From: Saprospiraceae bacterium
GTDB lineage: Bacteria > Bacteroidota > Bacteroidia > Chitinophagales > Saprospiraceae
Assembly (NCBI GenBank): GCA_020629965.1
Contig: JAHDCG010000037.1
Location: forward strand, 4,900 to 46,778
Length of the DNA: 41,879 nucleotides
Direction: 5' to 3'
Below, piece by piece: positions 7,679 to 36,171 of the stretch. A program made the position numbers and the translations under genes. Each line of letters begins with the position of its first letter. Position 1 is the first letter of the stretch. Below the pieces are notes generated by a model that saw only the letters and a list, made by a program, of their open reading frames with translations, did not search any database and was not told where the DNA came from.

Positions 7679-7895
7679 TTTGTTTAACTTTAGGGCTTCA
7701 AAAACAGATACTCTACGCATTTGACAGGATTTTTTTCCGTTTAAGAAACATAAAAAATAGTTCCGTAGCTACACGAAGCGTGGGGTTCAGGGGACCCACG
7801 GTGAAGTCAGCAACGATTTTTTAAATTCCTTAAACGAAAAATCCTTTCTGTCAAGCCACGCAGATTATCCGTTCCTGAAGCCCTACACAAACAAA
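7679..7895 (-). repeat. long imperfect inverted repeat (MITE-like or structured RNA), element 1
   Basis: The arms 7692-7745 and 7829-7884 are about 55 bp each. They share AGGGCTTCA, TTGACAG, GGATTTTT and CGTTTAAG in order, with outer TTTGTTT/AAACAAA extensions. The 83-bp centre holds a second hairpin, CGTGGG/CCCACG (7779-7784, 7795-7800), and on the minus strand a GTAGCTACGG motif also found in element 2 at 36.1 kb. Most arm differences are A/G or C/T changes that become G-U pairs in a minus-strand RNA. No protein-coding ORF is credible in it. Confidence 0.75.
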
Positions 7896-7913
7896 TTTAA
7901 AAAAAATCAATCC

Positions 7914-7935
7914 GAAAGCTGTAAAAAAGGCTTTC
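7914..7935 (+). other. small leader hairpin before the prohibitin gene
   Basis: GAAAGC and GCTTTC pair around a 10-nt A-rich loop, 19 bp upstream of the ATG at 7954. It could affect translation or be incidental. Confidence 0.3.
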
Positions 7936-7953
7936 ACATAAACATACTCAAGC

Positions 7954-8772
7954 ATGAATCAAAGTAAGTTAATCTCGACCGGTGTGGTCATTTTTATCGG
8001 TCTCATCATTCTTTTGACCGTCAGCAATTCCACCTTTTTAACCATCGACGCCGGCGAGCGCGGGGTTCTTTTCAAGCGTTTCAGCGGCGGTTTGGATAAG
8101 GAAAATATTTACGCCCCCGGCTTTCACGTCGTGGCACCGTGGAACAGCATGTATGTGTACGATGTGCGCGAAAAGCAAATCGAAGAGGAAATGAAAGTGC
8201 TGTCTTCCAACGGTCTGAATATCTCGGTCGATGTGACGGTACGGGTGGCTCCGGCTCCCGAAAAAATCGGTTATTTGCACGAGCAATTCGGTAAAAACTA
8301 CGTGAGCAGTCTCGTCACGCCCGAGGTGCGCTCAGCGGTGCGCGAAGTCGTCGGTCGCTACGAGCCGGAAGAACTGTACTCGACCAAGCGCGGCGAGGTG
8401 CAGGTCGGCATTCAGGAAAATTTGGCGGCGGCATTGTCCAAAAATTATATTCAACTCCGTGCCTCGCTCATCCGTGACATCGAGCTGCCGGATGCCGTGG
8501 CAAATGCGATTGAAGAGAAGTTGGAAGCACAGCAAGCCTCGTTAAAATACGAATACATTCTGAACCAAGAGCGTCAGGAAGCCCAACGTAAAATTATCGA
8601 AGCGGAAGCCAAAGCGGAGTCAAACCGCATCCTCAGCGCATCGCTTTCCGATAATATTTTGCGCGATAAAGGTATCGAAGCGACTTTGGAATTGTCAAAA
8701 TCGCCAAACTCTAAGGTGATTGTAGTCGGCGGCGGTGACGAAGGTTTGCCGTTAATTCTCGGCGGACAGTAA
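7954..8772 (+). CDS. prohibitin-like SPFH domain membrane protein
   Basis: This is a prohibitin/HflC-type SPFH protein, a class that forms membrane-anchored ring assemblies, often around proteases such as FtsH. The 272-residue protein has one N-terminal membrane helix (about 9-27, VVIFIGLIILLTVSNS). The SPFH/PHB domain follows (about 30-210, with DAGERGVLFKRFSGG and VRSAVREVVGRYEPEELYS). The C-terminal region (about 180-235) is charged and helical, with QAQRKIIEAEAKAES-type heptads fitting the coiled coil of the family. No protease gene is adjacent, so its partner cannot be read from context. It stands alone between two repeat-rich spacers. Confidence 0.92.
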   Translation: MNQSKLISTGVVIFIGLIILLTVSNSTFLTIDAGERGVLFKRFSGGLDKENIYAPGFHVVAPWNSMYVYDVREKQIEEEMKVLSSNGLNISVDVTVRVAPAPEKIGYLHEQFGKNYVSSLVTPEVRSAVREVVGRYEPEELYSTKRGEVQVGIQENLAAALSKNYIQLRASLIRDIELPDAVANAIEEKLEAQQASLKYEYILNQERQEAQRKIIEAEAKAESNRILSASLSDNILRDKGIEATLELSKSPNSKVIVVGGGDEGLPLILGGQ

Positions 8773-8776
8773 GGCT

Positions 8777-8811
8777 GGTTGGTGGGTGATGGTTGGTAGT
8801 TGGTGGACGGT
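8777..8811. repeat. heptamer repeat, GGTTGGT type
   Basis: Five 7-bp units (GGTTGGT, GGGTGAT, GGTTGGT, AGTTGGT, GGACGGT) begin 4 bp after the prohibitin stop codon. Confidence 0.7.
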
Positions 8812-8914
8812 TTTCGCAGATTTTCAAGTTTCCCTTATTGATATAACTTTCTTGGTTTTCTTTTGAAATTTTGTGCATCGATTTATCTTAACTGCCGCGA
8901 TTTTTCGAGCCGTG

Positions 8915-8996
8915 AATGTCGGACACTTTTGTTATGCATAAGGATTTGAAATTAATTTTTAATCCGCAGATTTGCACACAGCGAGTGTCCGACATT
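8915..8996. repeat. inverted repeat with TGTCGGACA core upstream of the glycosyltransferase
   Basis: Perfect 13-bp arms AATGTCGGACACT (8915-8927) and AGTGTCCGACATT (8984-8996) enclose an inner GGATT/AATCC pair. The same GTGTC-n-GACAC core recurs at 10176-10188 and 10243-10255, after the glycosyltransferase. Confidence 0.75.
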
Positions 8997-9034
8997 TTTA
9001 TTTTGACAATTCAAATTTTCTATTATCCGCTTGC

Positions 9035-9080
9035 GAGGATTTGTAATCCTCCGCGTTGCCCGCGCAAATTTGTAATTTGC
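9035..9080. repeat. two tandem hairpins sharing a TGT loop
   Basis: GAGGATT-TGT-AATCCTC (9035-9051) is followed 12 bp later by GCAAATT-TGT-AATTTGC (9064-9080). The two stems differ in sequence but keep the same 7-bp arm length and the ATTTGTAAT core, as in REP-like elements. They lie 23 bp before the chosen start at 9104. Confidence 0.7.
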
Positions 9081-9103
9081 TTATCTTTCACAAACCCAAT
9101 CTC

Positions 9104-10108
9104 ATGCCCGCCCGCATCAGCATCTTAATGCCGGTTTTTAATGCCGCCCCTTTCCTGCGGGAATGTTTGGATTCCATCCTCGCCCAAACCGAAACGAATT
9201 GGCAACTCTGCGCCGTCGATGACTTTTCGACCGATGCGAGCTATGATATTTTGCGTGAATATGCGAAAAAAGATGCGCGGATTGTTCCTTTAAAAAATAC
9301 CGAAAAAGGCATCATTCCCGCCTTGCGCACCGCCTTTCAAAATGCCGACGGCGACCTGTTGACACGCATGGACGCCGACGATAAAATGCCGCCGGAAAAA
9401 TTGGAATTGCTGAAAAATGCGCTGCTCACCGCCGGCGAAAATCACGTGGCGACGGGCTGTGTCCGCTATTTTTCCGACACCGAACTCGGCGCGGGCTATC
9501 AACGTTACGAGGCTTGGCTGAACGATTTGACCGCCCGCGATGCGCACTATTCCGAAATTTACAAAGAGTGCGTCATCCCCTCCCCCGCTTGGTTGGTACG
9601 GCGTGAAGATTTTGAAAAATGCGGGGCTTTCGACTCCGATTTATATCCGGAAGACTACGATTTGTGTTTTCGCTTTTACAAAAATAAAATGAAAATCGCG
9701 CCGGTGCGGGAGGTCGTACATCTGTGGCGTGACCACGGCGAGCGCACTTCGCGCAACGATGAGACCTACGCGAATAATGCTTATTTTGCGTTGAAACTAC
9801 CGTATTTTCTGCGTTTGGACTATGATAAAAATCGCCCGTTGGTGCTGTGGGGCGCGGGCAAAAAAGGGAAGGCTGTCGCGCGTTTTTTGGAAGCGGAAAA
9901 AGTACCTTTTATTTGGATTTGTAATAATGAGAGGAAGTGGGGTTTGACAATTTTTTCAACTAAAATTTTCGCGCCGGAATATTTACGTCGTTTGCAAAAT
10001 CCGCAAATCATCATCGCAGTGGCTGCGCCGGAGGGGCGGGAGGAGATTTTAGAGGTGATGCGGGAAAGCGGTTTAAAGCAGGGGGAGAATTATCGTTTTT
10101 TTTGTTAA
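9104..10108 (+). CDS. family 2 glycosyltransferase with C-terminal Rossmann-like domain
   Basis: The GT-A domain (about 1-235) begins with the typical RISILMPVFNAAPFLRECLDSIL and has the metal/nucleotide motif DADD at 90-93. This family transfers a sugar from a nucleotide sugar, usually to surface polysaccharide or glycolipid; donor and acceptor cannot be read here. The start MPARIS at 9104 is chosen because the frame upstream (from 9056) crosses a hairpin repeat. The C-terminal ~90 residues look like a separate nucleotide-binding fold with LVLWGAGKKGKAVARFLE (GxGxxG near 249-254). The stop codon lies inside a 13-bp sequence repeated at 10267-10279. No other polysaccharide genes are nearby. 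Confidence 0.88.
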   Translation: MPARISILMPVFNAAPFLRECLDSILAQTETNWQLCAVDDFSTDASYDILREYAKKDARIVPLKNTEKGIIPALRTAFQNADGDLLTRMDADDKMPPEKLELLKNALLTAGENHVATGCVRYFSDTELGAGYQRYEAWLNDLTARDAHYSEIYKECVIPSPAWLVRREDFEKCGAFDSDLYPEDYDLCFRFYKNKMKIAPVREVVHLWRDHGERTSRNDETYANNAYFALKLPYFLRLDYDKNRPLVLWGAGKKGKAVARFLEAEKVPFIWICNNERKWGLTIFSTKIFAPEYLRRLQNPQIIIAVAAPEGREEILEVMRESGLKQGENYRFFC

Positions 10109-10279
10109 ACCGTAAATGTTTAGGTGTCCCGACCGGGGTACGGGACAGTTTGCCCCCGATGTCGCGATTAGCGTCAGTGTCAGACACTCTTTGCCCGCAA
10201 GACCTCGGCAAAACATAACTTTTTCGTTATTTGCTTGGGTCAAGTGTCAGACACCTAAGCAATTACGTTAAACCGTAAA
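10104..10279. mobile_element. MITE-like segment bounded by 13-bp direct repeats
   Basis: GTTAAACCGTAAA occurs at 10104-10116 and again at 10267-10279. Just inside the left repeat is TGTTTAGGTGTC (10117-10128). Near the right one is GACACCTAAGCA (10250-10261), its reverse complement with one mismatch. Two AGTGTCAGACAC palindromes lie within (10176-10188, 10243-10255). The arrangement resembles a non-autonomous insertion with terminal inverted repeats and a target duplication, but 5 bp (ATTAC) separate the right inverted repeat from the direct repeat. It encodes nothing recognisable. Confidence 0.45.
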
Positions 10280-10281
10280 AT

Positions 10282-10479
10282 ATGCAGCAAGGCATCATTC
10301 AATTTTATTTAAAAAGACGCGGTTTCGGTTACGTCAGAGTGCCGGAGACGGGCGAAGAATTTCATTTTGCTAAAAAAAATCTGCGGGAAGAAATCGAGGA
10401 TAAAGACAAAGTTTCGTTTGTGCTGAAAAAGACTAAACACGGATTTTATGCGGATGAGATTTTTAGGGTGAGATATTAG
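10282..10479 (+). CDS. small cold-shock-domain-like protein
   Basis: The 65-residue protein resembles a single OB-fold cold-shock/S1-type domain. GIIQFYLKRRGFGYVRVPE corresponds to the first strands and RNP1 region (RGFGYV against the usual KGFGFI), and EFHFAKKNL to the RNP2 region (usual VFVHxxxL). Such proteins bind single-stranded RNA or DNA. It is basic, and the match is by motif only, so it may belong to a divergent group. The ATG lies 3 bp after the right-hand direct repeat of the MITE-like segment. A strong terminator follows at 10503-10540. Confidence 0.7.
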   Translation: MQQGIIQFYLKRRGFGYVRVPETGEEFHFAKKNLREEIEDKDKVSFVLKKTKHGFYADEIFRVRY

Positions 10480-10502
10480 ACTTTAGATTGTCTTCGTGAC
10501 TC

Positions 10503-10540
10503 AAAAAGCGTCATCCGATTTTCATCGAATGACGCTTTTT
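10503..10540. terminator. bidirectional terminator between convergent genes
   Basis: AAAAAGCGTCAT (10503-10514) pairs with ATGACGCTTTTT (10529-10540), with inner CGAT/ATCG pairs. A/T tracts on both sides suit both the small cold-shock-like gene (+) and the DUF5606 gene (-). Confidence 0.85.
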
Positions 10541-10564
10541 CACTAAAGATAAAACGCGAAAAAA

Positions 10565-10599
10565 ATCCGCACAAATCCGCCTTATCCGCTAAATCAGCG
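10565..10599. repeat. ATCCGC periodic repeat at the DUF5606 stop
   Basis: ATCCGC recurs at 10565, 10575 and 10584, with a variant ATCAGC at 10593 (9-10 bp period), ending next to the stop codon at 10603. The same family abuts the TonB-receptor stop at 25265. Confidence 0.65.
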
Positions 10600-10602
10600 A
10601 TT

Positions 10603-11037
10603 CTACTCTTCTTCCTCGTCGGATTTTTCAGCAGCTGCCACCTCCGGCTCCTCCAAAGTCACCAAGTTCCGCTCATCCAAAAAAGTAAACCACTTAATCA
10701 CCTTTTTCATGTCGCTCAAATGCACTTGGTCTTTGTCGTAAGTCGGCACGATGTCCTCGAAGTAATCTTTGATAGACTCCGCGCTGCCGGTCGGCGAAAC
10801 GGGCGGATTATCTTCCTTTTGTTGCAACATATTACGGAACACTTTTGCCAACTCGATAGAGTCTTCATTCGTGTAAATCGCAATGCTTTCCAAAGGCGTA
10901 AACTGGTATCTGCGCATCGACGCAAACTTCATTTTACCCGTATCGAGGTCTTCCAAAATGACCCCGTTTCCTCTGTTGCCCGAAATGCGGTGAATACCCG
11001 GAAGTCCCGAAACCGCTACTAATTTTTCTAAATTCAT
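10603..11037 (-). CDS. DUF5606-like protein
   Basis: The 144-residue protein begins MNLEKLVAVSGLPGIHRISGNRGNGVILEDL. This matches my memory of the Bacteroidota-specific DUF5606 family, whose function is unknown. The N-terminal ~70 residues form a compact beta-rich region (GVILEDLDTGKMKFASMRRYQFTPLESIAIYT). The rest is helical, and the C-terminus is acidic (EKSDEEEE). The start at 11037 is chosen over 11097 because the extra residues of the longer frame come from the heptamer repeat at 11045-11079. It follows the E1 dehydrogenase gene on the same strand, with its own candidate promoter at 11167-11174. Confidence 0.8.
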   Translation of the reverse strand: MNLEKLVAVSGLPGIHRISGNRGNGVILEDLDTGKMKFASMRRYQFTPLESIAIYTNEDSIELAKVFRNMLQQKEDNPPVSPTGSAESIKDYFEDIVPTYDKDQVHLSDMKKVIKWFTFLDERNLVTLEEPEVAAAEKSDEEEE

Positions 11038-11044
11038 TTTTTTT

Positions 11045-11079
11045 GTTGTCAGTTGTCGGTTGCCGGTTGTCCGTTGTCC
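11045..11079. repeat. heptamer repeat, GTTGTCS type, before the DUF5606 start
   Basis: Five units (GTTGTCA, GTTGTCG, GTTGCCG, GTTGTCC, GTTGTCC) lie 7 bp upstream of the ATG at 11037. The reverse complement family is at the nqrB stop. Confidence 0.8.
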
Positions 11080-11166
11080 GGCGGCGTTTTTCGACAAGTA
11101 TAGTATTGATGATTTTTTGTTGCATTTAGCCGCAAAAAACCTTTTTCTTTAATCCTAAAAGCTGCG

Positions 11167-11174
11167 CAAAAGTA
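11167..11174 (-). promoter_or_regulatory. candidate -7 box for the DUF5606 gene
   Basis: The minus strand reads TACTTTTG (TAnnTTTG), in the spacer between the E1 stop and the DUF5606 start, with a leader of about 120 nt. Confidence 0.35.
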
Positions 11175-11206
11175 GGTTTTTTTAGTTAAATCCGATGCTG
11201 CCGCCG

Positions 11207-11241
11207 TCTGCCGTCAAGCAAAGCGACCGTCCACCGTCCGT
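11207..11241. repeat. CCGTC-rich heptamer-like repeat at the E1 stop
   Basis: CCGCCGT, CTGCCGT, then CCACCGT and CCGTCTA units separated by a degenerate unit run up to the E1 stop codon at 11242. The same family precedes the ATG at 29739. Confidence 0.55.
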
Positions 11242-13251
11242 CTAATATTCAACAATCTTCCGCAACTGCTCTCTAAAACGTTCTTTCGGCAAAAACTGCT
11301 GCTCCAAGTCCGCCGCAAAAGGAATCGGCGTATCCAAACTCGCCGCCCGCAGCACCGGCGCGTCCAAATGCTCGAATAAATGCTCCGAAATCCACGCCGA
11401 CAACTCACCGCCGATACCGCCGAACATCGTGTCTTCGTGAAAAATCAAGGCGCGATTCGTCTTTTCGACCGTCGCTCTGACGGCGTCGTAATCCAAAGGA
11501 GCCAAAGAACGCAGGTCGATAATTTCCGCGTCGATACCTTCTTCTTCCGCAATTTGCGTCGCCCAGTGTACCGCCGCGCCGTAGGTCAAAACAGACACTG
11601 CCGTACCCGCTTTTGCCGTCCGCGCCTTACCGATTTCGGTGGTGTAATAGCCCTCCGGCACCTCACCGGTCAGACTGCGGTACAGTCCTTTGTGTTCAAA
11701 AAATAAAACGGGGTTCGGGTCTTCAAAAGCCGCAAGCAGCATACCCTTTGCGTCTTCCGGAGTAGAAGGATAGAGGACTTTCAGACCCGGCGTGTGCGTA
11801 AACCAAGCCTCGTTACTCTGCGAGTGAAAAGGCCCCGCCGCCACGCCGCCGCCCGTCGGCATCCGGATGACGACGTCCGCGTTTTCGCCCCAGCGGTAGT
11901 GCAATTTCGCCAAATAATTAACGATTTGATTAAAACCGCAGGTCACAAAATCAGCGAACTGCATTTCGACCATCGCCTTTTGGTTTTTCAAACTCAAACC
12001 CAAACCGATACCGATAATCGAGCTTTCGCAAATCGGCGTATTGCGCACGCGCTCCTTCCCGAATTCCTCCGTAAAGCCGTCCGTAATTTTGAAAACGCCG
12101 CCGTAGTCCGCCACGTCTTGCCCCATAATGACGAGATTGTCGTAGGTCTGCATCGCCGTTTTTAACCCTTCGTGAATGGCATCGACGAAGCGTTTTTCCG
12201 TCGCTTGACCGGTCGGTGCGGTAACTTGCTGCGTGTAGGGCGCGTAGAGGTCGCCGAGTTCGCGGTCGAGGTTAACGCTGATTTTCGGTTCGTTCTCGGC
12301 GTATTTTAAAGCCTGTTCGATTTCGGTTTTAATGCCTTTTTTCCAAGCGGTAATTTCCTTTTCGCTGATGACTTTTTGGTCGAGCAGCCAGGCTTCGTAA
12401 TTTTTGATCGGGTCTTTTGCCGCCCACTCCGCCATCAAGTCTTTGGGGACGTATTTTGTACCCGAAGCCTCCTCGTGACCGCGCATCCGGAAGGTTTTAC
12501 ATTCCGCCAAAACGGGGTGCGGGTTCTCTCTGATTTCCGAAGCAATTTTCGCCAATTCGGTGTAAACTTCGAGAATATTATTGCCGTCCAAAATGACCGA
12601 ACGCATGCCGTAGCCGATACCTCTGTCCGCCAAATCCTTGCAGCGATACTGCTCGGAGGTCGGTGTGCTGAGACCGTAGCCGTTATTTTCAATCAAAAAT
12701 ATCGTCGGCAAATCCCATACGGCAGCCACGTTGAGGGCTTCGTGAAATTCACCTTCGCTTGTGCCGCCCTCACCCGTAAAAGCAAGCGAAACGCGCGGTT
12801 CGTTCTGTATTTTGTGCGCCAAACCGACCCCGCCGGCGAGCGACAACTGCGGTCCCAAATGCGAAATCATCCCTACCAAGTTGTACTCCAAAGTACCGAA
12901 GTGAAAGGAACGGTCACGCCCTTTAGTAAAGCCTTTTTCCTTGCCCTGCCACTGACAAAACAGCCGCTCCAAAGGCACCTCGCGCGTGGTAAAAACGCCC
13001 AAATTGCGGTGCATCGGAAATATCGTTTCATCGGACAACATCGCCGAGGTCGCCCCCACGGAAATCGCCTCCTGCCCGATACCCGAAAACCATTTACTGA
13101 TTTTGCCCTGTCGCAGCAGTTTGAGCATTTTTTCCTCAATCATGCGCGGTTTGAGCATTTTTAGATACAGCTCACGGAGGGTGTCGTTGCTGAGATTTTG
13201 GCGGTCGTATTTTATGCCCCCGAAGGTCTGCGGGGTGGTTTTATTTGACAT
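11242..13251 (-). CDS. 2-oxo acid dehydrogenase E1, fused alpha and beta chains
   Basis: This is the thiamine-diphosphate E1 component of a 2-oxo acid dehydrogenase complex, decarboxylating the oxo acid and passing the acyl group to lipoyl-E2. The alpha half (about 1-345) holds the ThDP motif G160-E161-G162 to N189-N190 and the RDRSFHFG segment. The beta half (about 355-669) starts RFVDAIHEGLKTAM and includes MGQDVADYGGVFK, MPTGGGVAAGPFHSQS and a C-terminal transketolase domain. At 669 residues it equals the sum of separate chains (~340 + ~325). Fused E1 chains are common in Bacteroidota, where they are usually called branched-chain/2-oxoisovalerate type. The substrate is not decided by sequence alone. 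No E2 or E3 is nearby. Confidence 0.92.
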   Translation of the reverse strand: MSNKTTPQTFGGIKYDRQNLSNDTLRELYLKMLKPRMIEEKMLKLLRQGKISKWFSGIGQEAISVGATSAMLSDETIFPMHRNLGVFTTREVPLERLFCQWQGKEKGFTKGRDRSFHFGTLEYNLVGMISHLGPQLSLAGGVGLAHKIQNEPRVSLAFTGEGGTSEGEFHEALNVAAVWDLPTIFLIENNGYGLSTPTSEQYRCKDLADRGIGYGMRSVILDGNNILEVYTELAKIASEIRENPHPVLAECKTFRMRGHEEASGTKYVPKDLMAEWAAKDPIKNYEAWLLDQKVISEKEITAWKKGIKTEIEQALKYAENEPKISVNLDRELGDLYAPYTQQVTAPTGQATEKRFVDAIHEGLKTAMQTYDNLVIMGQDVADYGGVFKITDGFTEEFGKERVRNTPICESSIIGIGLGLSLKNQKAMVEMQFADFVTCGFNQIVNYLAKLHYRWGENADVVIRMPTGGGVAAGPFHSQSNEAWFTHTPGLKVLYPSTPEDAKGMLLAAFEDPNPVLFFEHKGLYRSLTGEVPEGYYTTEIGKARTAKAGTAVSVLTYGAAVHWATQIAEEEGIDAEIIDLRSLAPLDYDAVRATVEKTNRALIFHEDTMFGGIGGELSAWISEHLFEHLDAPVLRAASLDTPIPFAADLEQQFLPKERFREQLRKIVEY

Positions 13252-13286
13252 GAATAAATATTTTTTCTATTCTTGAAAATCGGGCG

Positions 13287-13294
13287 CAAAGGTA
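13287..13294 (-). promoter_or_regulatory. candidate -7 box for the E1 dehydrogenase gene
   Basis: TACCTTTG on the minus strand, about 36 bp before the ATG at 13251, with a TTTTC stretch roughly 23 bp further upstream in the -33 position. Confidence 0.4.
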
Positions 13295-13491
13295 AGGGTT
13301 TTACCGATGCAGCGTCCGAAAAGTTGCGTTCGGAAACGTCGGCGACGAAATGAATTTTTATTTCAATAATTTTTTTCTACCTTTCGACTTTTAAAAATGA
13401 GCAGCGAAATGTCGCTGTGCTTTGCAACTCATTACGTTCAATTTTATTTTGTCAGGAGAAATTTTGGAGTTTGGTGTGCCGTGTGGGGGTG

Positions 13492-13604
13492 AGACGCGTT
13501 TTCCCGCGTCTGTACGTGCTTGAGGTTTTCGGGAGTCGGAAATTTGATTTTCTTTTTTGAAGTTTGTTGTCCGTTTTCGCTTTAGACGTGGCAGTGCCGC
13601 GTCT
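13492..13604. repeat. pair of AGACGCG hairpins
   Basis: AGACGCG-TTTTCC-CGCGTCT (13492-13511) and AGACGTGGCA-G-TGCCGCGTCT (13584-13604) are two stem-loops with the same AGACGYG ends, 72 bp apart. The 462-bp spacer 13252-13713 also holds the E1 promoter candidate and the 9-mer repeat at 13630-13674. I see no gene in it. Confidence 0.65.
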
Positions 13605-13629
13605 CTACAAACTTGAAACCGGGAGCAGG

Positions 13630-13678
13630 ACATAACGACTCAAACAATTCTAACAAGTCAAACCACTCCAACAATCCT
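13630..13678. repeat. 9-bp degenerate repeat upstream of the MFS gene
   Basis: Five units of the form ACnAYTCnA (ACGACTCAA, ACAATTCTA, ACAAGTCAA, ACCACTCCA, ACAATCCTA) stand about 35 bp before the ATG at 13714. Confidence 0.6.
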
Positions 13679-13713
13679 AACCCTTTCCTCGACAAAATAC
13701 ATAAACAAAAAAT

Positions 13714-15012: not shown

Positions 15013-15040
15013 TGCTAATATTTGTTAATTGCTGATACTT

Positions 15041-15106
15041 TTTTTTTGAACCTGATTTTTATGATTCTTATGATTTGTTATGATTTGGATTTTACTTCGT
15101 AAAATC
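15041..15106 (+). repeat. 3'-end T-rich repeat with hairpin, copy A
   Basis: TTTTTGAACCTG is followed by TGATT-based 9-10 bp units and the hairpin GATTTTAC-TTC-GTAAAATC (15088-15106), 29 bp after the MFS stop. Matching copies follow the genes ending at 15831 and 17314, and a diverged one follows mqnC. Confidence 0.8.
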
Positions 15107-15164
15107 TGCGCGACCGAAAATTGGGATAACTATCAAAAATTAATAAACCACAGCGTTAGAAAAA

Positions 15165-15199
15165 AGGCGTGATTGCAAATAACAATCACGCCTTTTTTT
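15165..15199 (+). terminator. strong rho-independent terminator
   Basis: Perfect 11-bp stem AGGCGTGATTG/CAATCACGCCT (15165-15175, 15183-15193), a 7-nt loop and a T7 tail. An A run on the other side could let it act in both directions. It separates the MFS unit from the next gene and rules out the long upstream frame of that gene. Confidence 0.88.
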
Positions 15200-21314: not shown

Positions 21315-21371
21315 TTTCGCAATTTTACTCAAAAGGTGACTTTGAGTCACCCTGTGAGTAAAATTGCGAAA
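21315..21371. repeat. dispersed palindrome, copy 2, with 17-bp perfect outer arms
   Basis: The core (21325-21361) is identical to copy 1. The pairing extends outward to give perfect 17-bp arms, TTTCGCAATTTTACTCA (21315-21331) and its complement (21355-21371), plus the inner GGTGACT/AGTCACC stem. It lies in the divergent spacer between the prenyl synthase and the alkyltransferase. Confidence 0.88.
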
Positions 21372-24107: not shown

Positions 24108-24162
24108 TTTTACTCACAGGGTGACTCTCTTGTCCCTTAGGATAGTCACCCTGTGAGTAAAA
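24108..24162. repeat. dispersed palindrome, copy 3, perfect 19-bp arms
   Basis: TTTTACTCACAGGGTGACT (24108-24126) and its exact complement (24144-24162) flank a 17-nt loop. It is the most symmetrical of the four copies and lies between the methyltransferase stop and the FKBP start, 18 bp past the former. Confidence 0.9.
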
Positions 24163-29430: not shown

Positions 29431-29548
29431 TTTTTGAAATCAGCGTAGAAATGCCTTGAATTTTCCCACCTTTGCTGTTTTGAAAAACGTTTGTGCGCTT
29501 GAAATATGTGGGTTAATAAGAAATATTGCTTCTCGTTCTTTTGATTTG

Positions 29549-29583
29549 AGGAGAGAGGAGTCAGGTGAGAAGAGAGAGTAAAG
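29549..29583. repeat. heptamer repeat, AGGAGAG type
   Basis: AGGAGAG, AGGAGTC, AGGTGAG, AAGAGAG, AGTAAAG: five phased units in the 308-bp spacer 29431-29738 before the GH57 gene. Apart from the second array at 29701-29735, nothing else is seen in that spacer. Confidence 0.75.
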
Positions 29584-29700
29584 CGGGACTAAAAGTAAAT
29601 GTTCTTGTTTTTTTCCTTACGATTATCGAAAGTATGGTAAAATATTAACTCACAGCTTTCACCGCAGAGCAAAAAACTAACAACACCAAGCGACTTACGC

Positions 29701-29735
29701 CCCCGTCCGCCGTAAGCCGTCCAACCGTCCACCGT
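29701..29735. repeat. CCGTC-type heptamers next to the GH57 start codon
   Basis: CCCCGTC, CGCCGTA, AGCCGTC, CAACCGT, CCACCGT end 3 bp before the ATG at 29739. No Shine-Dalgarno is visible between. Confidence 0.7.
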
Positions 29736-29738
29736 CTT

Positions 29739-32144
29739 ATGAAATACATCTGCGTCCACGGTCATTTTTACCAGCCGCCCCGCGAAAATGCGTGGTTGGA
29801 ATTTGTCGAGAAACAAGAGTCTGCCAAACCCTGGCACGACTGGAACGAGCGCATCAATTTTGAATGCTACTCGACCAATGCTGCTGCCCGTATTTTAGGC
29901 GGCGAGGACTACATCACCAAAATCACGAGCAATTATTCGCGCATCAGTTTCAACTTCGGACCGACGCTTTTGTCGTGGTTGGAAGAGAACGACAAAACGA
30001 CTTACGACAAAATTATTGCCTCGGACAAACGCAGCGCGGAACGCTTCGGCGGACACGGATCGGCGGTCGCGCAGGTGCATTCGCACATTATTATGCCGCT
30101 GGCAAATGAGCGCGACAAGCACACCCAAATTATTTGGGGTATCGCCGATTTTGAGAAGCGTTTCGACCGCAAACCCGAAGGTATTTGGCTCGCCGAAACC
30201 GCCGTCGATACGGATACTTTGGAGGCTTTGGTTGACCACGACATCAAATATACCATTCTCGCGCCGCGCCAAATGAAAGCCCTGCGTGCGGAAGGCAAAG
30301 AGGACTGGTACACGGTGCAAAACGAGCAATTCGATACGCGTCGCCCGTACAAATGCAAACTGCCCTCGGGACGCGAAATCGCCCTCTTTTTCTACAACGG
30401 CGAAATCTCCAAAGGCATCGCTTTCGAGGGGCTGCTCAACAACGGTCGCGCCTTTTCCGAACGCCTGCTCAACACCTTCGACAGCAACGATACGCCGCAG
30501 CTCACCCATATCGCCACCGACGGCGAAAGCTACGGACACCACCACCGCTACGGCGAAATGGCACTCGCCGCCTGCCTGAAGAATGTCGAAGAAAGCGGTC
30601 GCGCCAAACTCACCAATTACGGACAATTTCTGGAACTTTTCCCGCCGACTTTCGAGGCGCAAATTTGGGACAATTCCTCTTGGTCGTGCGTGCACGGCGT
30701 AGAGCGGTGGCGGTCGAATTGCGGCTGTCACACCGGCGGCGAGGGGCACTGGAATCAACTGTGGCGCGCCCCGCTGCGCGATGCTTTGGATTGGCTGCGC
30801 GACAAACTCGTGCCGATTTATGAGCGCGAAGGCGGCAAATTATTAGAAAATGTGTGGGAGGCCCGCAACGATTACATCTCCGTACTGCTGGACAGAAACG
30901 AACACAGCGTCGGGCAGTTCATGGAGCGCAACGCGCAATACGACCTCGATGCCGACGAGACGACGCAACTGCTGCGCCTGATGGAAATGCAGCGCAATGC
31001 TATCTTGATGTACACGAGTTGCGGGTGGTTTTTTAACGAAGTTTCGGGTTTGGAGACCAACCAAATTTTGCAGTATGCACTGCGGGCGATTCAGTACGCG
31101 AAGCAGGTGTCGGGCGCGGATTTGAAGAAAGAATTTGAGGACATGCTGCGCCGGACGCCGTCCAATATTTACGAAAATGCTTACGAAAATTGGAAGCAAA
31201 ATGTGCTGCCGACTTCGGTCGGTCTGGAGCGGGCGGGCATGCACTTTGCGGCGGCGGCGTTGTTTGAAAGGGATTTGAAAAAAATCGAGCTTTTCAACTA
31301 CGAGGGTTTGAGTCGGGAGGTAAAAAGAGCCGAGGCGGGTACGCAGCGTATGGCAATCGGGCGCATGACGCTGCGCTCGAAAATCAGCTACTCGGAAAAG
31401 TCGTTTTGCTTTGCTTCGGTCTATCTCGGGCAGCAGAATATCTTCGGTACGATTAGCACGGACATGGAAGACGAGTCGTTTTTTAAAATGCGCGAGGCGT
31501 TGATGACGGCTTTTAAATCCGCAAATTTGGGCGATGTCATCATCAACACGGAGCGGTATTTCGGCAAAAAACGCTTTACGGTGCGCAATCTTTTTCAAGA
31601 CGAAAAGCACAAAATACTGACGCAGGTCATGGAGCAAAATCTCGGTCACGCCGAGCGCGATTTCCGGGATATTTACGAAGATAATTATCAGTTGATGACG
31701 GTGATGCTGCAAAATAATATCTCCGTGCCGCAGATTTATCTGGATGCGACGGAACACGTTTTGAACCGCGATTTGTACAATTATTTTTTCAGCGAAAATA
31801 TGTATTTGCGGGAGTTGTCGCGCTTGGTAACGGAGTTTGAAAAGTGGGATGTGGAAATGAAAAACGTGGCGGCACTCAAACTGGCGGCGGGCGAGCGCAT
31901 TCGCAATGAAATCGAAAATTTAGAGTCTTCCGCGCCGAGTTTGGATGTACTGTTGAAGTTGAATAAAATCATTGCCAACCTGCAAGCGATGTCGGTCAAA
32001 GTCTCTTATGCGAAAAGCCAAAACGCTTATTTTAACCGTGCCAAACGCTTCCGCAAAGGCTTCGATACTTTTTACAATGAAGTGCATAAGGCGGCATTTT
32101 TGGAATTGGGAGAACTGTTGAAAGTGCGGGCGCGGGTGGAATAG
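29739..32144 (+). CDS. glycoside hydrolase family 57 protein with DUF3536
   Basis: The 801-residue protein has a GH57 catalytic domain: VHGHFYQPPREN (residues 6-17, the HQP-like region 1), IWLAETAVDTD near 149-152 (region 3, whose Glu is the nucleophile in the family) and THIATDGESYGHHHRYGEMAL near 260 (region 4, carrying the acid/base Asp). GH57 enzymes act on alpha-glucans as amylases, glucanotransferases or branching enzymes. The DUF3536 C-terminus (about 330-800) is helical and marks a subgroup whose substrate is not known to me. No signal peptide, so it is cytoplasmic and probably works on storage glucan. No glycogen genes are nearby. Confidence 0.88.
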   Translation: MKYICVHGHFYQPPRENAWLEFVEKQESAKPWHDWNERINFECYSTNAAARILGGEDYITKITSNYSRISFNFGPTLLSWLEENDKTTYDKIIASDKRSAERFGGHGSAVAQVHSHIIMPLANERDKHTQIIWGIADFEKRFDRKPEGIWLAETAVDTDTLEALVDHDIKYTILAPRQMKALRAEGKEDWYTVQNEQFDTRRPYKCKLPSGREIALFFYNGEISKGIAFEGLLNNGRAFSERLLNTFDSNDTPQLTHIATDGESYGHHHRYGEMALAACLKNVEESGRAKLTNYGQFLELFPPTFEAQIWDNSSWSCVHGVERWRSNCGCHTGGEGHWNQLWRAPLRDALDWLRDKLVPIYEREGGKLLENVWEARNDYISVLLDRNEHSVGQFMERNAQYDLDADETTQLLRLMEMQRNAILMYTSCGWFFNEVSGLETNQILQYALRAIQYAKQVSGADLKKEFEDMLRRTPSNIYENAYENWKQNVLPTSVGLERAGMHFAAAALFERDLKKIELFNYEGLSREVKRAEAGTQRMAIGRMTLRSKISYSEKSFCFASVYLGQQNIFGTISTDMEDESFFKMREALMTAFKSANLGDVIINTERYFGKKRFTVRNLFQDEKHKILTQVMEQNLGHAERDFRDIYEDNYQLMTVMLQNNISVPQIYLDATEHVLNRDLYNYFFSENMYLRELSRLVTEFEKWDVEMKNVAALKLAAGERIRNEIENLESSAPSLDVLLKLNKIIANLQAMSVKVSYAKSQNAYFNRAKRFRKGFDTFYNEVHKAAFLELGELLKVRARVE

Positions 32145-32153
32145 AACGGAACG

Positions 32154-32185
32154 TTTAGAAGTTTAGGCGTTTAAGGGTTTAATCG
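32154..32185. repeat. 8-bp TTTAGGCG repeat after the GH57 gene
   Basis: TTTAGAAG, TTTAGGCG, TTTAAGGG, TTTAATCG, starting 9 bp after the stop at 32144 and running into the terminator stem. Same family as 39382-39413. Confidence 0.7.
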
Positions 32186-32222
32186 GCTCGAATTTCTGTA
32201 CGGAAATTCGAGCCGATTTTCT
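32181..32222. terminator. bidirectional terminator between GH57 and SUI1 genes
   Basis: Perfect 16-bp stem AATCGGCTCGAATTTC (32181-32196) with its complement (32203-32218), loop TGTACG, then TTTT. It ends 4 bp from the SUI1 stop codon. Confidence 0.88.
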
Positions 32223-32225
32223 TGG

Positions 32226-32561
32226 CTATCCGCCTGATTTTTTCGTTTTCGTGTAGCCTTTATTTTTCAATAATTCGACAATTTTATCGCGGTGATTGCC
32301 TTGTATCAAAACTTCGCCGTCCTTTACCGAGCCGCCGACCCCGCACTTCGATTTCAGAAATTTGCCTAAGTCTTTCAGGTCGTCTTCCGCGCCGACAAAG
32401 CCGGTGATGAGCGTTACTTCCTTGCCGCGTCGTTTTTTGCGGTCAATCATCACGTAGAGTTTTTGCTCCGCCGGGTCGAGCGTTTCCGCCGTTTCTTCTT
32501 CGGGCAAATCGGGTTGCCAATCGGGGTTGGTGCTGTAAAAGTTGATGCGATTTTTTGCCAT
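32226..32561 (-). CDS. SUI1/eIF1-like translation initiation factor
   Basis: The 111-residue protein has a variable N-terminus (about 1-38) and a SUI1 domain (about 40-110): RKKRRGKEVTLITGFVGAEDDLKDLGKFLKSKCGVGGSVKDGEVLIQGNHRDKIVELLKNKGY. This is the bacterial YciH type, thought to bind the small ribosomal subunit and influence start selection. The CGVGGSVKDGEVLIQGNH block is diagnostic. It is a single-gene unit; the AGGAGAG heptamer array lies 22 bp before its start. Confidence 0.93.
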   Translation of the reverse strand: MAKNRINFYSTNPDWQPDLPEEETAETLDPAEQKLYVMIDRKKRRGKEVTLITGFVGAEDDLKDLGKFLKSKCGVGGSVKDGEVLIQGNHRDKIVELLKNKGYTKTKKSGG

Positions 32562-32582
32562 TTTGTTATGGTTGTGAAATTT

Positions 32583-32617
32583 AGGAGAGAGGGGTCAGGT
32601 GAGAGGAGAGAGAAGCC
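32583..32617. repeat. heptamer repeat, AGGAGAG type
   Basis: AGGAGAG, AGGGGTC, AGGTGAG, AGGAGAG, AGAAGCC, nearly the same as the array at 29549-29583. It opens the 427-bp spacer 32562-32988, which otherwise holds only the repeats at 32904-32963. Confidence 0.8.
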
Positions 32618-32903
32618 GGAGGCAAAACTAAAATCTCCTTTTTCTCCTCGGCTTTTCTGATTTCCCGATAAAAGTTTTTGATAAATTACTCGACTCTCGG
32701 TTTCCTCCGTGGTGCTTTTTTTGCAAACAAAGCAAAGTAAAGTCTTGTTCAAAAGCCCGTCATTTCGTGTAAAAATCAACTAAAATCGCCGCCGATAACA
32801 ATTTTTTTTCGACAATAATCTTCATTTCCCGAAAGTTTCCTATTTTGTGAATTATTATAAAAACCAACACTCAAATCAAAGGAGGAGTCGAAATTAGAAA
32901 AGA

Positions 32904-32963
32904 TGCAGAGACACAGAGACGAACAGCGTCTAACGTCTAATATCTAACGTCTAAAGTCTCCTC
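32904..32963. repeat. CAGAGACG phrase followed by TCTAAVR heptamers
   Basis: GCAGAGACACAGAGACG is followed by TCTAACG, TCTAATA, TCTAACG, TCTAAAG, TCTCCTC (32929-32963), 25 bp before the YifB start. Both families occur elsewhere in the window. Confidence 0.75.
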
Positions 32964-32988
32964 CCACACAACAGAGAAAACACACAAC

Positions 32989-34548
32989 ATGCTGGTCAAA
33001 ACTTACTCCTCCGCCGTGCAAGGCGTAGATGCCCGTACCATCACCGTAGAAGTCAACGCAGGCGGTCAGCCGGCGGGTGGTGTTAATAATTTTTATCAAA
33101 TGGTCGGGCTGCCCGACAAAGCCGTCAGCGAGGGTTTTCGCCGCATCGAAGCCGCGATAACCAACGTCAAAAAGAACATGCCGCGGCTGTATCTCATCGT
33201 CAATCTCGCGCCCGCCGATATTCGCAAAGAGGGTTCTTCCTTTGATTTGCCGATCGCGATGGGCATTTTGGCGGCGAGTAATCAAGTCAAATCCGAAGAA
33301 ATCGGCAAGTATCTGATGATTGGCGAACTGTCGCTCGACGGCGGTTTGCGTCCCGTCAAAGGTGCGCTTTCCATTGCCATACAAGCCCGCAAAGAAAAAT
33401 ATAAAGGACTGATAATCAGTCACCAAAATGCCCGCGAAGCCGCCATCGTTAACGACCTCGAAGTCTATGGTGTAGAAAATTTGCGCGAGGTCATCGACTA
33501 TTTCAACGGCGAAAAAGAACTGAAACAAACCATCGTCGAAACCCGCGAAGAGTTTGCCGGAAATCAGGAATATTTCGACGTCGATTTTTCGGATGTGAAA
33601 GGTCAGGAAAACATCAAACGCGCTTTGGAAATCGCCGCAGCGGGCGGTCACAATGCTATTCTTATCGGTCCGCCGGGCGCGGGGAAGACAATGTTGGCGC
33701 GGCGCATGCCGACGGTATTGCCGCAACTATCGCTGATGGAGGCTTTGGAAACGACGAAAATTCATTCCGTCGCGGGTAAGCTGGCCGAAAATTCTTCGCT
33801 CGTCGCGCACCGTCCGTTTCGTGCGCCGCACCATACCATCAGCGACGTAGCTCTGGTCGGCGGCGGCGGAAATCCGATGCCCGGCGAAATTTCTTTGGCG
33901 CACAACGGCGTTTTGTTTTTGGATGAATTGCCGGAGTTTAAACGCAGCGTACTCGAAGTGATGCGCCAACCGATGGAAGAACGCCGCGTCACTATTTCGC
34001 GGGCGCGGCTTTCGGTCGATTATCCCGCCAATTTTATGCTCATCGCCTCCATGAATCCCTGCCCCTGCGGCTATTACAACCACCCGACGAAGGACTGCGT
34101 TTGCGGTCCCGGCGTAGTCAAACGCTACCTCAACAAAATATCGGGGCCGCTGCTGGACAGAATCGACCTGCACGTAGAGGTCACGCCCGTCAGCTACGAC
34201 CAACTGACGGACACGGAAAAAGAGTACGAAAACAGCGAAGTCATTCGCAATCGCGTCTTGCAAGCTCGTCAAATTCAGGCGGAACGCTTCAAAGAATACC
34301 CCGGCGTCTATGCCAATGCGCAAATGCCCGGCCGCATGGTGCGCGAGGTATGCGCCTTAGAAAAACCGGGGCTGCTGCTGCTCAAAACCGCCATGAAAAA
34401 ACTGCAACTTTCGGCACGCGCCTACGACCGCATTCTCAAAGTCGCGCGCACGGCAGCGGATTTGGCGGGCAGTAAGGACATTACCATCGAACACTTGGCA
34501 GAGGCGATACAGTATCGGAGTTTGGACAGAGACAACTGGGCGGGGTAG
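32989..34548 (+). CDS. YifB/ComM-family Mg-chelatase-like AAA+ ATPase
   Basis: The 519-residue protein has the family layout: an N-terminal Lon-like fold (about 1-170, starting MLVKTYSSAVQGVDARTITVEVNAGG), an AAA+ domain with Walker A GPPGAGKT at 227-234 and Walker B VLFLDELPEF, and a C-terminal Mg-chelatase domain. The conserved cysteine block MNPCPCGYYNHPTKDCVCGP is present. ComM relatives act as branch-migration helicases in natural transformation; that role here is by homology only. No other competence gene is adjacent. Confidence 0.93.
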   Translation: MLVKTYSSAVQGVDARTITVEVNAGGQPAGGVNNFYQMVGLPDKAVSEGFRRIEAAITNVKKNMPRLYLIVNLAPADIRKEGSSFDLPIAMGILAASNQVKSEEIGKYLMIGELSLDGGLRPVKGALSIAIQARKEKYKGLIISHQNAREAAIVNDLEVYGVENLREVIDYFNGEKELKQTIVETREEFAGNQEYFDVDFSDVKGQENIKRALEIAAAGGHNAILIGPPGAGKTMLARRMPTVLPQLSLMEALETTKIHSVAGKLAENSSLVAHRPFRAPHHTISDVALVGGGGNPMPGEISLAHNGVLFLDELPEFKRSVLEVMRQPMEERRVTISRARLSVDYPANFMLIASMNPCPCGYYNHPTKDCVCGPGVVKRYLNKISGPLLDRIDLHVEVTPVSYDQLTDTEKEYENSEVIRNRVLQARQIQAERFKEYPGVYANAQMPGRMVREVCALEKPGLLLLKTAMKKLQLSARAYDRILKVARTAADLAGSKDITIEHLAEAIQYRSLDRDNWAG

Positions 34549-34666
34549 TGTTGGCGGGAGGTTTTCATTTTTTTTTGGAGATAGCAAGAGAATGAATGTT
34601 TTCGTTTTTTCTTGATGTCAGATTATCCGGTTTCCTAAAATTGTGTCAATGTCATATCTCGACCTG

Positions 34667-34695
34667 TTTTGCCAACGGGATAATTATTAGCTTTG
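34667..34695 (+). promoter_or_regulatory. candidate promoter of the M28 peptidase gene
   Basis: TTTTG (34667-34671), a 16-bp spacer and TAGCTTTG (34688-34695) match the Bacteroidota -33/-7 pattern. The transcript leader would contain the inverted repeat at 34725-34830. Confidence 0.5.
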
Positions 34696-34724
34696 CAATT
34701 CATTTCACATTGTTTGATATACCG

Positions 34725-34830
34725 GTTCAATGACAAATCACACAATGGTGATACAGAAAAATTTAAAACCTGAGGTGTTATTTTATTTCAGATTTTAAAT
34801 TTTTCTCTATCACGTGATTTGTCACAGAAC
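34725..34830 (+). promoter_or_regulatory. long leader hairpin (inverted repeat) before the M28 peptidase
   Basis: Perfect 11-bp arms TGACAAATCAC/GTGATTTGTCA (34731-34741, 34814-34824) are extended outward by GTTC/GAAC. Inward they continue through GTGAT/ATCAC, AGAAAAATTTAAAA and its complement, and CCTGA/TCAGA. The loop is about 14 nt and AT-rich. The hairpin ends 8 bp before the ATG at 34839. It could be an RNA control element or a small inserted repeat. Confidence 0.7.
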
Positions 34831-34838
34831 AAAAAAAT

Positions 34839-35864
34839 ATGAATTTGATTTCCAAAGTTAAAACCCTCGCCGCTTTACTGCTGCTTTGCTTTCTCGTTGC
34901 CGCCTGCGGTGATGATAAACCTACCGAACCCGCGCCGCCCATGCAGATTGAGAAAAAATATAAGGTCACAAAATTCGACGGGCAGGCAGCTTACGATTTG
35001 GTGGCAAAGCAAGTCGCATTCGGCTACCGGGTGCCGGGCACGGAGGCACACAAACAGACCGCAGAGTGGTTGGTGCAAAAATTTGAGGAGTACGGTGCGC
35101 AGGTTATCGTACAGGATTTTATTGCCGAAACGCATTACGGCGAGAAACTGCCTTCCAAAAATATCATCGCTCAAATCAATCCTTCCGCCAAAGAACGCAT
35201 TCTTTTCGGAGCGCACTGGGACAGTCGCTACGCCGCCGATAAAGACGATGAGCGCGCCGACCAACCCATCGCGGGCGCGGATGACGGAGGCAGCGGCACG
35301 GCGGTTTTGCTGCAACTCGCTAAGCAATTACAAGAAAATCCGATAGAGGCGGAAGACCTCGGCGTGGACTTTATTCTTTTCGACGCCGAAGACCAAGGCA
35401 AAGACGGCGACGGCACCGAAGATACATCTACCACTTGGTGTCTGGGTTCGCAGCACTGGAGCAAAAATGTCGTGCCGCAGGGCTATTCCGCCAAATACGG
35501 TATTTTGTTGGACATGGTCGGCTCGGCCAATCCGCGTTTCGGTTACGAGGGCTACTCGATGCAGATTAATCCACAACTTGTGGATAAGGTGTGGAAAAAG
35601 GCGCAAAATATGGGTTACTCCAATTATTTTGTCCGCGAGCGCACGGGGGCCATTACCGACGACCATTATTACGTTGCCGTCAACGCCGGCATTCCGATGA
35701 TTGACATTATTAATTTGCCGGAAGGCAGCGGGCAGCGTTCGACCTTCGGGCCGTATCATCATACGCACGACGACGACATGGATATTATCAGCAAAAAATC
35801 TTTGCGCATTGTCGGGCAAGTGATGCTGGCGGTCATTTATGCGGAGGCGAATAATAATTTTTAA
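34839..35864 (+). CDS. M28-family metallopeptidase lipoprotein, glutaminyl-cyclase-like
   Basis: The 341-residue protein begins with a lipoprotein signal: hydrophobic to 22, then lipobox VAAC with C23 followed by GDD. The M28/glutaminyl-peptide cyclotransferase fold shows its di-zinc ligands: GAHWDSR (His), GADDGGSGTAVLLQLAKQL (Asp), FDAEDQGKDGD (Glu pair), LDMVGSANPRF (Asp) and PYHHTHDDDMD (His). Relatives are aminopeptidases or enzymes that cyclise N-terminal glutamine; the sequence resembles the cyclotransferase side, but this is not settled. Asp after +1 does not clearly predict inner- or outer-membrane location in this phylum. Confidence 0.9.
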   Translation: MNLISKVKTLAALLLLCFLVAACGDDKPTEPAPPMQIEKKYKVTKFDGQAAYDLVAKQVAFGYRVPGTEAHKQTAEWLVQKFEEYGAQVIVQDFIAETHYGEKLPSKNIIAQINPSAKERILFGAHWDSRYAADKDDERADQPIAGADDGGSGTAVLLQLAKQLQENPIEAEDLGVDFILFDAEDQGKDGDGTEDTSTTWCLGSQHWSKNVVPQGYSAKYGILLDMVGSANPRFGYEGYSMQINPQLVDKVWKKAQNMGYSNYFVRERTGAITDDHYYVAVNAGIPMIDIINLPEGSGQRSTFGPYHHTHDDDMDIISKKSLRIVGQVMLAVIYAEANNNF

Positions 35865-35914
35865 AAAGCATTTGAATTTTATAAGCTGAATTTATAGTGA
35901 ATCAAATCTGTGGC

Positions 35915-35963
35915 TACTCACAGGGTGACTCATTTATCTCTCAAGAAAGTCACCTTTCGAGTA
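35915..35963. repeat. dispersed palindrome, copy 4 (reverse orientation)
   Basis: TACTCACAGGGTGACT (35915-35930) faces AGTCACCTTTCGAGTA (35948-35963), an imperfect complement. The two arm types are those of copies 1 and 2 in swapped order, with a longer loop. It lies 51 bp after the M28 peptidase stop. Confidence 0.8.
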
Positions 35964-36007
35964 AGAGCAAAGTATCGACCGATTCGACTTATGACCTGAA
36001 TTTTTAA

Positions 36008-36171
36008 TACACTGTAAATTAAGTTTGTTAAATTTTTTCGCCCTTTATTTTTGTGTTTGACAAGGCAAAAAAATTAAGCATAGCCGTCGCTACGGTTCAC
36101 TTTTTTTAACGCCGTCAAACGCGAAAAGAAAGACGCGAAAAATTTGATGAAACTTTGTTTACAGTGTATTT
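36008..36171 (+). repeat. long imperfect inverted repeat (MITE-like or structured RNA), element 2
   Basis: The two arms of about 60 bp share AATACACTGTAAA, AAGTTT, AAATTTTT, CGC and GTTTGAC in the same order. The centre carries AGCCGT-CGCT-ACGGTT, related to the GCTACGG centre of element 1. Transition differences between arms are all T/C, giving G-U pairs in a plus-strand RNA. The left arm contains a promoter-like TTTG-N18-TATTTTTG. It fills most of the 385-bp spacer before the TPR regulator. Confidence 0.78.
36024..36053 (+). promoter_or_regulatory. candidate promoter of the TPR regulator, inside element 2
   Basis: TTTG (36024-36027), 18 bp, TATTTTTG (36046-36053): the best match to the Bacteroidota consensus in the window. 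It lies in the left arm of the inverted repeat, about 197 bp before the ATG at 36250. Confidence 0.5.

Follow-up and report, generated by a model that had tools for sequence, protein, structure and literature searches.

Two long hairpins in the window

The window, a stretch of 41,879 nucleotides from a Saprospiraceae bacterium (GenBank assembly GCA_020629965.1, contig JAHDCG010000037.1, positions 4,900 to 46,778), carries two long inverted repeats (Table 1). The sequence GTMGCTACGGWWC is present twice in the window, at 7760-7772 on the minus strand and at 36086-36098 on the plus strand, while shuffled sequences give an expectation of 0.01, and at both sites it lies centrally in a long hairpin. 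It had been claimed in an earlier note that the two repeats are one family in opposite orientation, and this centre, shared on opposite strands and placed mid-hairpin in each, bears the claim out; the fuller conserved centre is GCATAGCCnTAGCTACGG.

Element 1 folds with -95.6 kcal/mol (z -10.2) and element 2 with -63.9 kcal/mol (z -8.3). The length of element 1 is due to an enlarged loop, in which 37 nt with a small hairpin of their own stand in place of ATAGCC, while its relatives in the same genome (L002, L007 and L009) have the same ends 160 nt apart; a similar enlarged loop is found in one further copy of this genome (L233:1-200). Large copies are also present in genome G057 (L159, L162 and L163). 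Element 2 has a near-identical relative in its own genome (L008), and Saprospiraceae copies fall within the same 72% cluster.

Table 1. Coordinates of the two hairpin elements and their parts (positions in the window)
Feature	Position	Strand	Remarks
Element 1, including TA at each end	7691..7885	-	type B ends TAGGGCTTC...GAAGCCCTA; 195 nt
Element 1, 5' arm (minus-strand reading)	7812..7883	-	
Element 1, enlarged centre	7763..7811	-	GC, TGACTTCA-small hairpin-CTTCGT, GTAGCTACGG; replaces the plain 18-nt loop
Element 1, 3' arm (minus-strand reading)	7693..7762	-	
Element 2	36005..36173	+	type C ends TAATACACTG...CAGTGTATTTAA
Element 2, internal loop, 5' side CAAGGC	36061..36066	+	AGGC starts 15 nt before the loop, a position common to the clusters having AGGC
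Element 2, 18-nt loop GCATAGCCGTCGCTACGG	36078..36095	+	
Element 2, internal loop, 3' side AACG	36108..36111	+	12 nt past the loop

Distribution and architecture of the family

A family of this kind should have further copies, as the earlier note had anticipated, and these are numerous: GCATAGCCGTAGCTACGG, when at most one mismatch is allowed, recurs 39 times in the own genome, whereas the reversed pattern has no match. The covariance model R1 places at least 46 loop-strand sites in this genome, a lower bound based on the 150 of 4017 first-look candidates that were scored. Beyond it, copies occur in other Bacteroidota, in a Micavibrio and, less certainly, in Gammaproteobacteria. The Micavibrio copy is matched over its full length by a model made from Bacteroidota only (E 3.6e-9). 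Membership of the gammaproteobacterial copies is uncertain, because the model matches only the loop of three that do have hairpin arms (L045, L050 and L064; E 0.014-0.45) and because two others (L046 and L056) have the common loop without a clear hairpin in the alignment. In viral contigs no match was obtained to the 18-mer with a single M position, and a looser loop pattern gave 12, one of which (L322) resembles a real element and 11 of which lack a convincing hairpin. DNA similarity searches of plasmids returned short, weak matches only: one in Nonomuraea at E 0.06 and two cyanobacterial ones at E 6, each of the latter close to an integrase gene and taken for chance; a further search returned nothing.

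In all, 140 distinct copies were collected. They fall into 39 sequence clusters, and 34 of these are clear hairpins; the 13 copies and 5 clusters without a clear hairpin were left out of the structural counts, in which arms were limited to 68 nt. A typical element spans about 160 nt between TA dinucleotides and has GCATAGCCnTAGCTACGG as its loop. Across the 27 clusters with complementary ends adjoining TA, to which the length figure is confined, the modal TA-to-TA length has a median of 159 and lies within 153-164 in 23; the shorter values (129-144) apparently reflect inner TA matches, and family A, at 153 in this count, gives 159 when measured separately. The termini are symmetric and read TA...TA in most of the copies listed. 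Terminal duplications had also been suggested as a check; beyond the TA no longer repeat was seen and, TA being palindromic, duplication is unproven.

Arms and ends vary widely between clusters while the 18-base loop is kept, a conservation that is partly built in because the loop was used to collect copies; in the own genome one copy has lost its loop and in two the loop is enlarged. Within the loop, the pair of positions 3 and 16 is A·C in all but 4 of the 34 clusters (30), and those 4 have A-T or G-C. About half of the clusters share, in addition, an internal loop at a fixed distance from the apex: AGGC is present in 16/34 clusters (1.7 in shuffles) and AACG in 19/34 (2.3 in shuffles), with both in 16/34, and the distance is the same, to within one base, for 16 of 17 AGGC and 17 of 21 AACG occurrences.

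Covariation and strand bias of the stem

The arms covary, as looked for on the strength of the earlier note, and their score of 0.572 lies above both controls: slid partners reach no more than 0.263 and shuffles average 0.175. The slide control is biased in favour of the structure, which was worked out on the very alignment tested. The T-run that the note had placed after the centre is present in both window elements, but it is not a general feature, being an A-run in several families, and in alignment A1 the stem at the T-run swaps A-U for U-A pairs.

Mismatches in the arms are unevenly distributed between the strands. On the loop strand, 127 copies together show 788 G·T against 263 A·C, and G·T is the commoner of the two in 30 of the 32 clusters without a tie, with a sign-test p of 2.5e-7 that is optimistic because the clusters have common ancestry. 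The opposite bias is seen in cluster L070:3872 and marginally in L123, and two clusters tie. A looser arm count, in which some arms run too far and a few copies are read in reverse, gives 599 G·T against 243 A·C (71 copies versus 9). Other mismatches are balanced (246 GG and TT, 249 AA and CC), so that there is no general keto bias. A point against is that G is abundant and C scarce on the loop strand, composition alone predicting a G·T:A·C ratio of about 1.5; the observed ratio is 3.0. The earlier proposal that wobble pairs fall on the strand carrying the motif holds for the family and for element 1 (G·T 9, A·C 2; fold -87.9 against -67.4 for the opposite strand), while element 2 by itself is marginal (5 against 4; -63.9 against -56.9). 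The strand bias is firm only at the family level, across clusters.

Mobility and competing explanations

Near-identical copies are dispersed in unrelated places, and it is from this dispersal that the elements are taken to be mobile. The 12 own-genome copies of type D, for instance, are nearly identical, all flanked by TA and located at unrelated sites. Copies that are short, dispersed and near-identical are what characterizes MITEs, and on balance we favour, with modest confidence, the explanation that the two repeats belong to a superfamily of MITE-like, non-autonomous mobile elements, which are moved in trans and have a loop strand that acts in folded form. Because the loop is kept while arms and ends differ, the element would seem to depend on one single strand in its folded state. 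This strand, RNA or single-stranded DNA, would offer its loop and internal loop as binding sites to a protein acting in trans, and the element ends would be the target of a transposase whose gene lies elsewhere. If this explanation is right, the folded strand is rather more probably an RNA transcribed from the element, with single-stranded DNA a somewhat less probable form. Control of neighbouring genes is not needed as a role. A more detailed version, which we regard as doubtful, is that the transposition system reads the apical loop of 18 nt and the internal loop of the folded strand and locates the ends by their distance, about 71 nt down the stem, leaving arms and ends free to drift and the apex able to take up extra hairpin modules, as in element 1 and the large G057 copies.

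A different and unlikely possibility is that these are REPIN-like elements moved as single-stranded DNA by an HUH transposase (Y1, RAYT-type) encoded elsewhere. REPINs have been described as dispersed extragenic hairpins in which length and compensatory changes matter and which are mobilized in trans (PMC3116915), features that speak for this reading. Two Y1-like genes are present in the own genome, and all 8 element-rich genomes tested further have a Y1_Tnp match; however, Y1 matches are found in 19 of 23 genomes with a core match and in 204 of 275 others, without clear association, and Y1 is too common to discriminate as a marker of the mover. Moreover, G098 and G142 carry hairpin copies without a Y1 match (in assemblies 83% and 68% complete), and the seven Y1-bearing loci scanned with R1, including the flanks of the two own Y1 genes and four loci of relatives, gave no match. 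The ends differ among clusters and show by eye no common tag, neither GTAG nor CGTC, and it is the middle that is conserved. To our knowledge TA...TA termini with symmetric ends are atypical of IS200/IS605, which likewise counts against an HUH transposase. Finally, orientation follows no local GC skew (22 of 39, copies with less than 6 kb of flank being dropped), although this is a weak proxy for the replication strand.

That the repeats are ordinary MITEs of several unrelated insertion sequences, with the centre a DNA-level motif (a protein site or cruciform) spread by recombination, is rather improbable. TA ends and long symmetric terminal repeats agree with it, as do two Arenibacter elements of 54 nt (L290 and L291) that share the ends but have no loop, from which it may be that the ends alone are sufficient for movement. 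On the other hand, a wobble asymmetry between strands is unexpected for a double-stranded or cruciform function, and the own genome (99.4% complete) has no match to DDE_3, DDE_Tnp_1 or rve at E 0.001; with no DDE_3 match, the resident IS630 transposase expected for RUP-type elements was not found. Nor was a parental element detected among the 27 own-genome matches to the type-D end (12 paired copies, one with an insert, one truncated and one at a contig end) or in Arenibacter, where 52 matches to one end type were listed and 20 stretches of approximately 4 kb were searched for a partner end. One distant Arenibacter pair (L297; 2.8 kb, 3 mismatches in 14) was the only one and was taken for chance. 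Of 17 loci with DDE_Tnp_1, 5 had a lone end-like match and none had a pair.

Transcription terminators or mRNA-stability elements of neighbouring genes are a very improbable explanation. Both window copies do combine a stable hairpin with a T-run, but several families have A in place of T in this run, and the orientation of 38 copies to rough ORF-based genes is even (11 divergent, 9 and 9 tandem, 5 convergent, 4 incomplete; overlap of 6 copies by ORFs of 245-644 nt was ignored as mechanical), which makes terminator or mRNA control a poor explanation; the arrangement of an intrinsic terminator, a hairpin and T-run downstream of genes and in their direction, was not what was found. Hardly credible, despite the RNA-like covariation, is a hairpin RNA of retroelement type that a reverse transcriptase copies, given that the own genome lacks an RVT_1 match at E 0.001 and only 4 of 9 element-bearing genomes have one.

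Comparison with known systems

None of the known Rfam families fits: the window and 18 loci gave no match at gathering score, and relaxed searches of six loci gave 15 matches, all below gathering, 12 of them to microRNA hairpins (best E 0.00024), and none at E 1 for the large G057 copies. The letters AGCCGUA...UACGGUUC resemble the lower stem of group II intron domain V, a likeness treated as coincidence; in the present family the bases outside the 18-nt loop covary freely. A literature search retrieved papers on REP/REPIN and MITEs, in whose accessible portions neither the core letters nor this loop appear, and the family, which is large, is apparently undescribed. It offers a clear starting point for tests of mobility and for tracing the mover, and many of the long inverted repeats that stand unannotated in Bacteroidota would find an explanation in it.

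In the parts of the literature available, several systems resemble it in some respects. The Cardinium MITE derives from IS982, a named parent, unlike these hairpins (PMC9769881). The TIR repeats of TIRYT genes are likewise palindromic and dispersed and are linked to tyrosine transposases (PMC3733652), but they flank the transposase gene, whereas the Y1-bearing loci scanned here lack the hairpin. Correia/NEMIS, ERIC and RUP elements are of similar size (about 100-200 bp), with long stem-loops, 5'TA3' termini and target duplication (PMC2229807); each is nevertheless listed there as a single family from a single set of related organisms, and the description as excerpted mentions no loop common to dissimilar families, while here 34 dissimilar hairpin clusters share one loop across phyla. 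REPIN/REP sequences with RAYT/TnpAREP are alike in being short, dispersed extragenic hairpins with a folded single strand and no transposase of their own, for which length and compensatory change are important (PMC3116915, PMC8266576, PMC3733652). As described there, however, REPINs keep their ends (the REP, in which a GTAG tag is typical) while the spacer varies, whereas in the present family the middle is kept, the ends vary and TA stands at both. Short bacterial mobile hairpins are usually defined by their ends and this family by its middle, and one length combined with many end sequences across phyla points to a factor that reads the loop of the folded strand.

Copies of the window repeats in the own genome

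The earlier note had proposed that the two long inverted repeats of the window are one family in opposite orientation, and this is borne out by the centre that they share on opposite strands (0.01 expected) and by a long hairpin at each centre, with a stability far above that of shuffled sequences. The search for further copies that it had called for was productive, as in the own genome GTMGCTACGGWWC occurs at 10 places and the loop pattern GCATAGCCGTAGCTACGG, allowing one mismatch, at 39, against none for the reversed pattern. When three mismatches are allowed, GCATAGCCGTAGCTACGG is found at 47 places (25 exact) and its reversed pattern at 28, so that the loose matches are partly due to chance. 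The family covariance model (R1) recovered at least 46 loop-strand places with an E value of 4e-5 or better, a lower bound because scoring covered 150 of the 4017 first-look candidates; the remaining 32 of its 78 rows are the same places on the opposite strand, with scores that are nearly always far lower.

Features of the window (~, approximate)
Feature	Position	Strand
Element 1, hairpin	7691-7885	-
Element 1, shared centre	7760-7772	-
Element 2, hairpin	36005-36173	+
Element 2, shared centre	36086-36098	+
Shorter hairpin family, ACTCACAGGGTGACT and partner arm	21315-21371	
Shorter hairpin family	24108-24162	
Shorter hairpin family	~35916-35964	
Additional inverted repeat, start GTGATACAGAAAAATTTAAAA	34748-34813	

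The window also contains a second, shorter hairpin family and an additional inverted repeat, whose start also occurs in the right flank of L039, next to an element copy.

Anatomy and strand asymmetry

At least nine end types (A-I) can be distinguished among the own-genome copies, both window types included. All 12 copies of type D are flanked by TA on each side with 160 nt in between, while some own copies break the TA...TA rule, for example L018 (CA...TG), L029, L011 and L074; in a descriptive tally of modal lengths from one terminal TA to the other, the median is 159 and 23 of 27 values lie at 153-164. Clustering the 140 distinct copies at 72% identity gave 39 clusters; the 127 copies that form clear hairpins make up 34 of these. 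The loop consensus is G1 C2 A3 T4 A5 G6 C7 C8 n9 T10 A11 G12 C13 T14 A15 C16 G17 G18, in which TAGC is predicted to pair with GCTA and C2 with G17; position 9 is the most variable, and A3·C16 is replaced by A-T in three clusters and by G-C in one, counts that are bounded by the patterns with which the copies were collected. The first position outside the loop covaries (A/T 11, T/A 10, G/C 7, unpaired 6; n=34), and about half of the clusters carry an internal loop, AGGC 15-16 nt 5' and AACG 11-12 nt 3' of the loop, which is closed in own families A, B, D and E. Covariation, another check proposed at the outset, was tested on 23 Bacteroidota elements in a plain sequence alignment, and both controls were passed.

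When 67 elements were folded both ways, the loop strand gave 515 G-U pairs and the opposite strand 133, and in 64 of the elements the loop-strand fold was the better one. With G·T and A·C scored alike in arms of up to 68 nt, mismatches numbered 788 and 263, respectively, a ratio of 3.0 versus approximately 1.5 predicted arithmetically from base composition alone; G·T exceeded A·C on the loop strand in 30 of 32 untied clusters (p 2.5e-7, clusters taken as independent), and no keto bias was present among the remaining mismatches (GG+TT 246, AA+CC 249). Element 1 clearly shows the wobble bias originally noticed in both window elements, with 9 G·T to 2 A·C; in element 2, with 5 to 4, it is marginal. 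Since single-stranded DNA also tolerates G·T, this asymmetry does not separate RNA from DNA. The T-run said to follow the centre is present in many copies, where the stem beside the loop is A-run/T-run, and reversed (T-run/A-run) in some, and is thus no terminator signal.

Variant and composite copies

In element 1 and in L233:1-200 the loop is enlarged, with a small hairpin lying between TGACTTCA and TTCGT. Three G057 copies (L159, L162, L163) retain the basal stem, with arrays of small hairpins surrounding the loop, and the L163 fold reaches -209.8 kcal/mol over 556 nt (z -10.5). Modules recur in these surroundings (L163:800-1200, L159, L162), such as GATGAGGGAGCC with adjoining stems, and an Rfam search with them gave no matches. 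L244 has lost the loop and kept the arms and internal loop, and both the own genome (C289) and Arenibacter (L258, L298, L300) have half-elements that stop at the loop or close to it. Arenibacter also has two loopless 54-nt elements with both ends, and one end sequence common to two arm subfamilies; together, these Arenibacter variants favour end recognition in this genome.

L139 holds an element and, immediately beyond a TA that belongs to both, the beginning of a second copy with the same end. Hairpins of the form TCCCG...CGGGA, approximately 20-30 nt, occur in the 5' arms of unrelated copies from the own genome (L031) and Cerina (L066), and other copies are nested in a terminator-like hairpin (L028, ~1501) or between inverted repeats (L008).

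Distribution, genomic context and candidate movers

When named genome contigs were scanned for exact matches, of which about one is expected by chance (arithmetic), 31 stretches were obtained from 17 organisms, assigned by record title: 11 Bacteroidota (including Arenibacter, Pricia, Maribacter, Cerina, Allomuricauda, Draconibacterium and Saprospiraceae), five Gammaproteobacteria and one Micavibrio. A viral contig (L322) holds one apparent real element with GAGGC and AACG. Among genomes of the same order, 23 of 298 have a match, including G281 and G091, where the hairpin is absent and the matches look like chance; counts are highest in G057 (52), G000 and G150 (39 each), G208 (25) and G065 (14). 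This patchy occurrence among genomes is in keeping with a mobile element.

By rough gene calls, the neighbours of 38 own copies are divergent in 11, tandem in 9 + 9, convergent in 5 and incomplete in 4, and 32 of the 38 are free of rough-ORF overlap; compared with local GC skew and with the coding strand, the copies show no bias (22 of 39 in each comparison). A domain search of the own genome at E 0.001 gave no matches to DDE_3, DDE_Tnp_1, RVT_1 or rve. Two Y1-like genes are present (E 1.6e-6 and 0.028), the second exceeding the curated cut-off once same-frame pieces are summed. Further element-bearing genomes have DDE_Tnp_1 (6/8), rve (6/9) and RVT_1 (4/9).

Relation to known elements

The simplest account is that the folded loop strand is recognised in trans during mobilisation, given that the loop is unchanged, the arms are free, the length is near-fixed and wobble is one-stranded. 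The family resembles MITEs in size, ends and dispersion, although a parental element has not been found. REPINs are closest in mode of working; however, conserved and variable parts are swapped and the GTAG tag is absent, and therefore the hairpin family is not classed among them.
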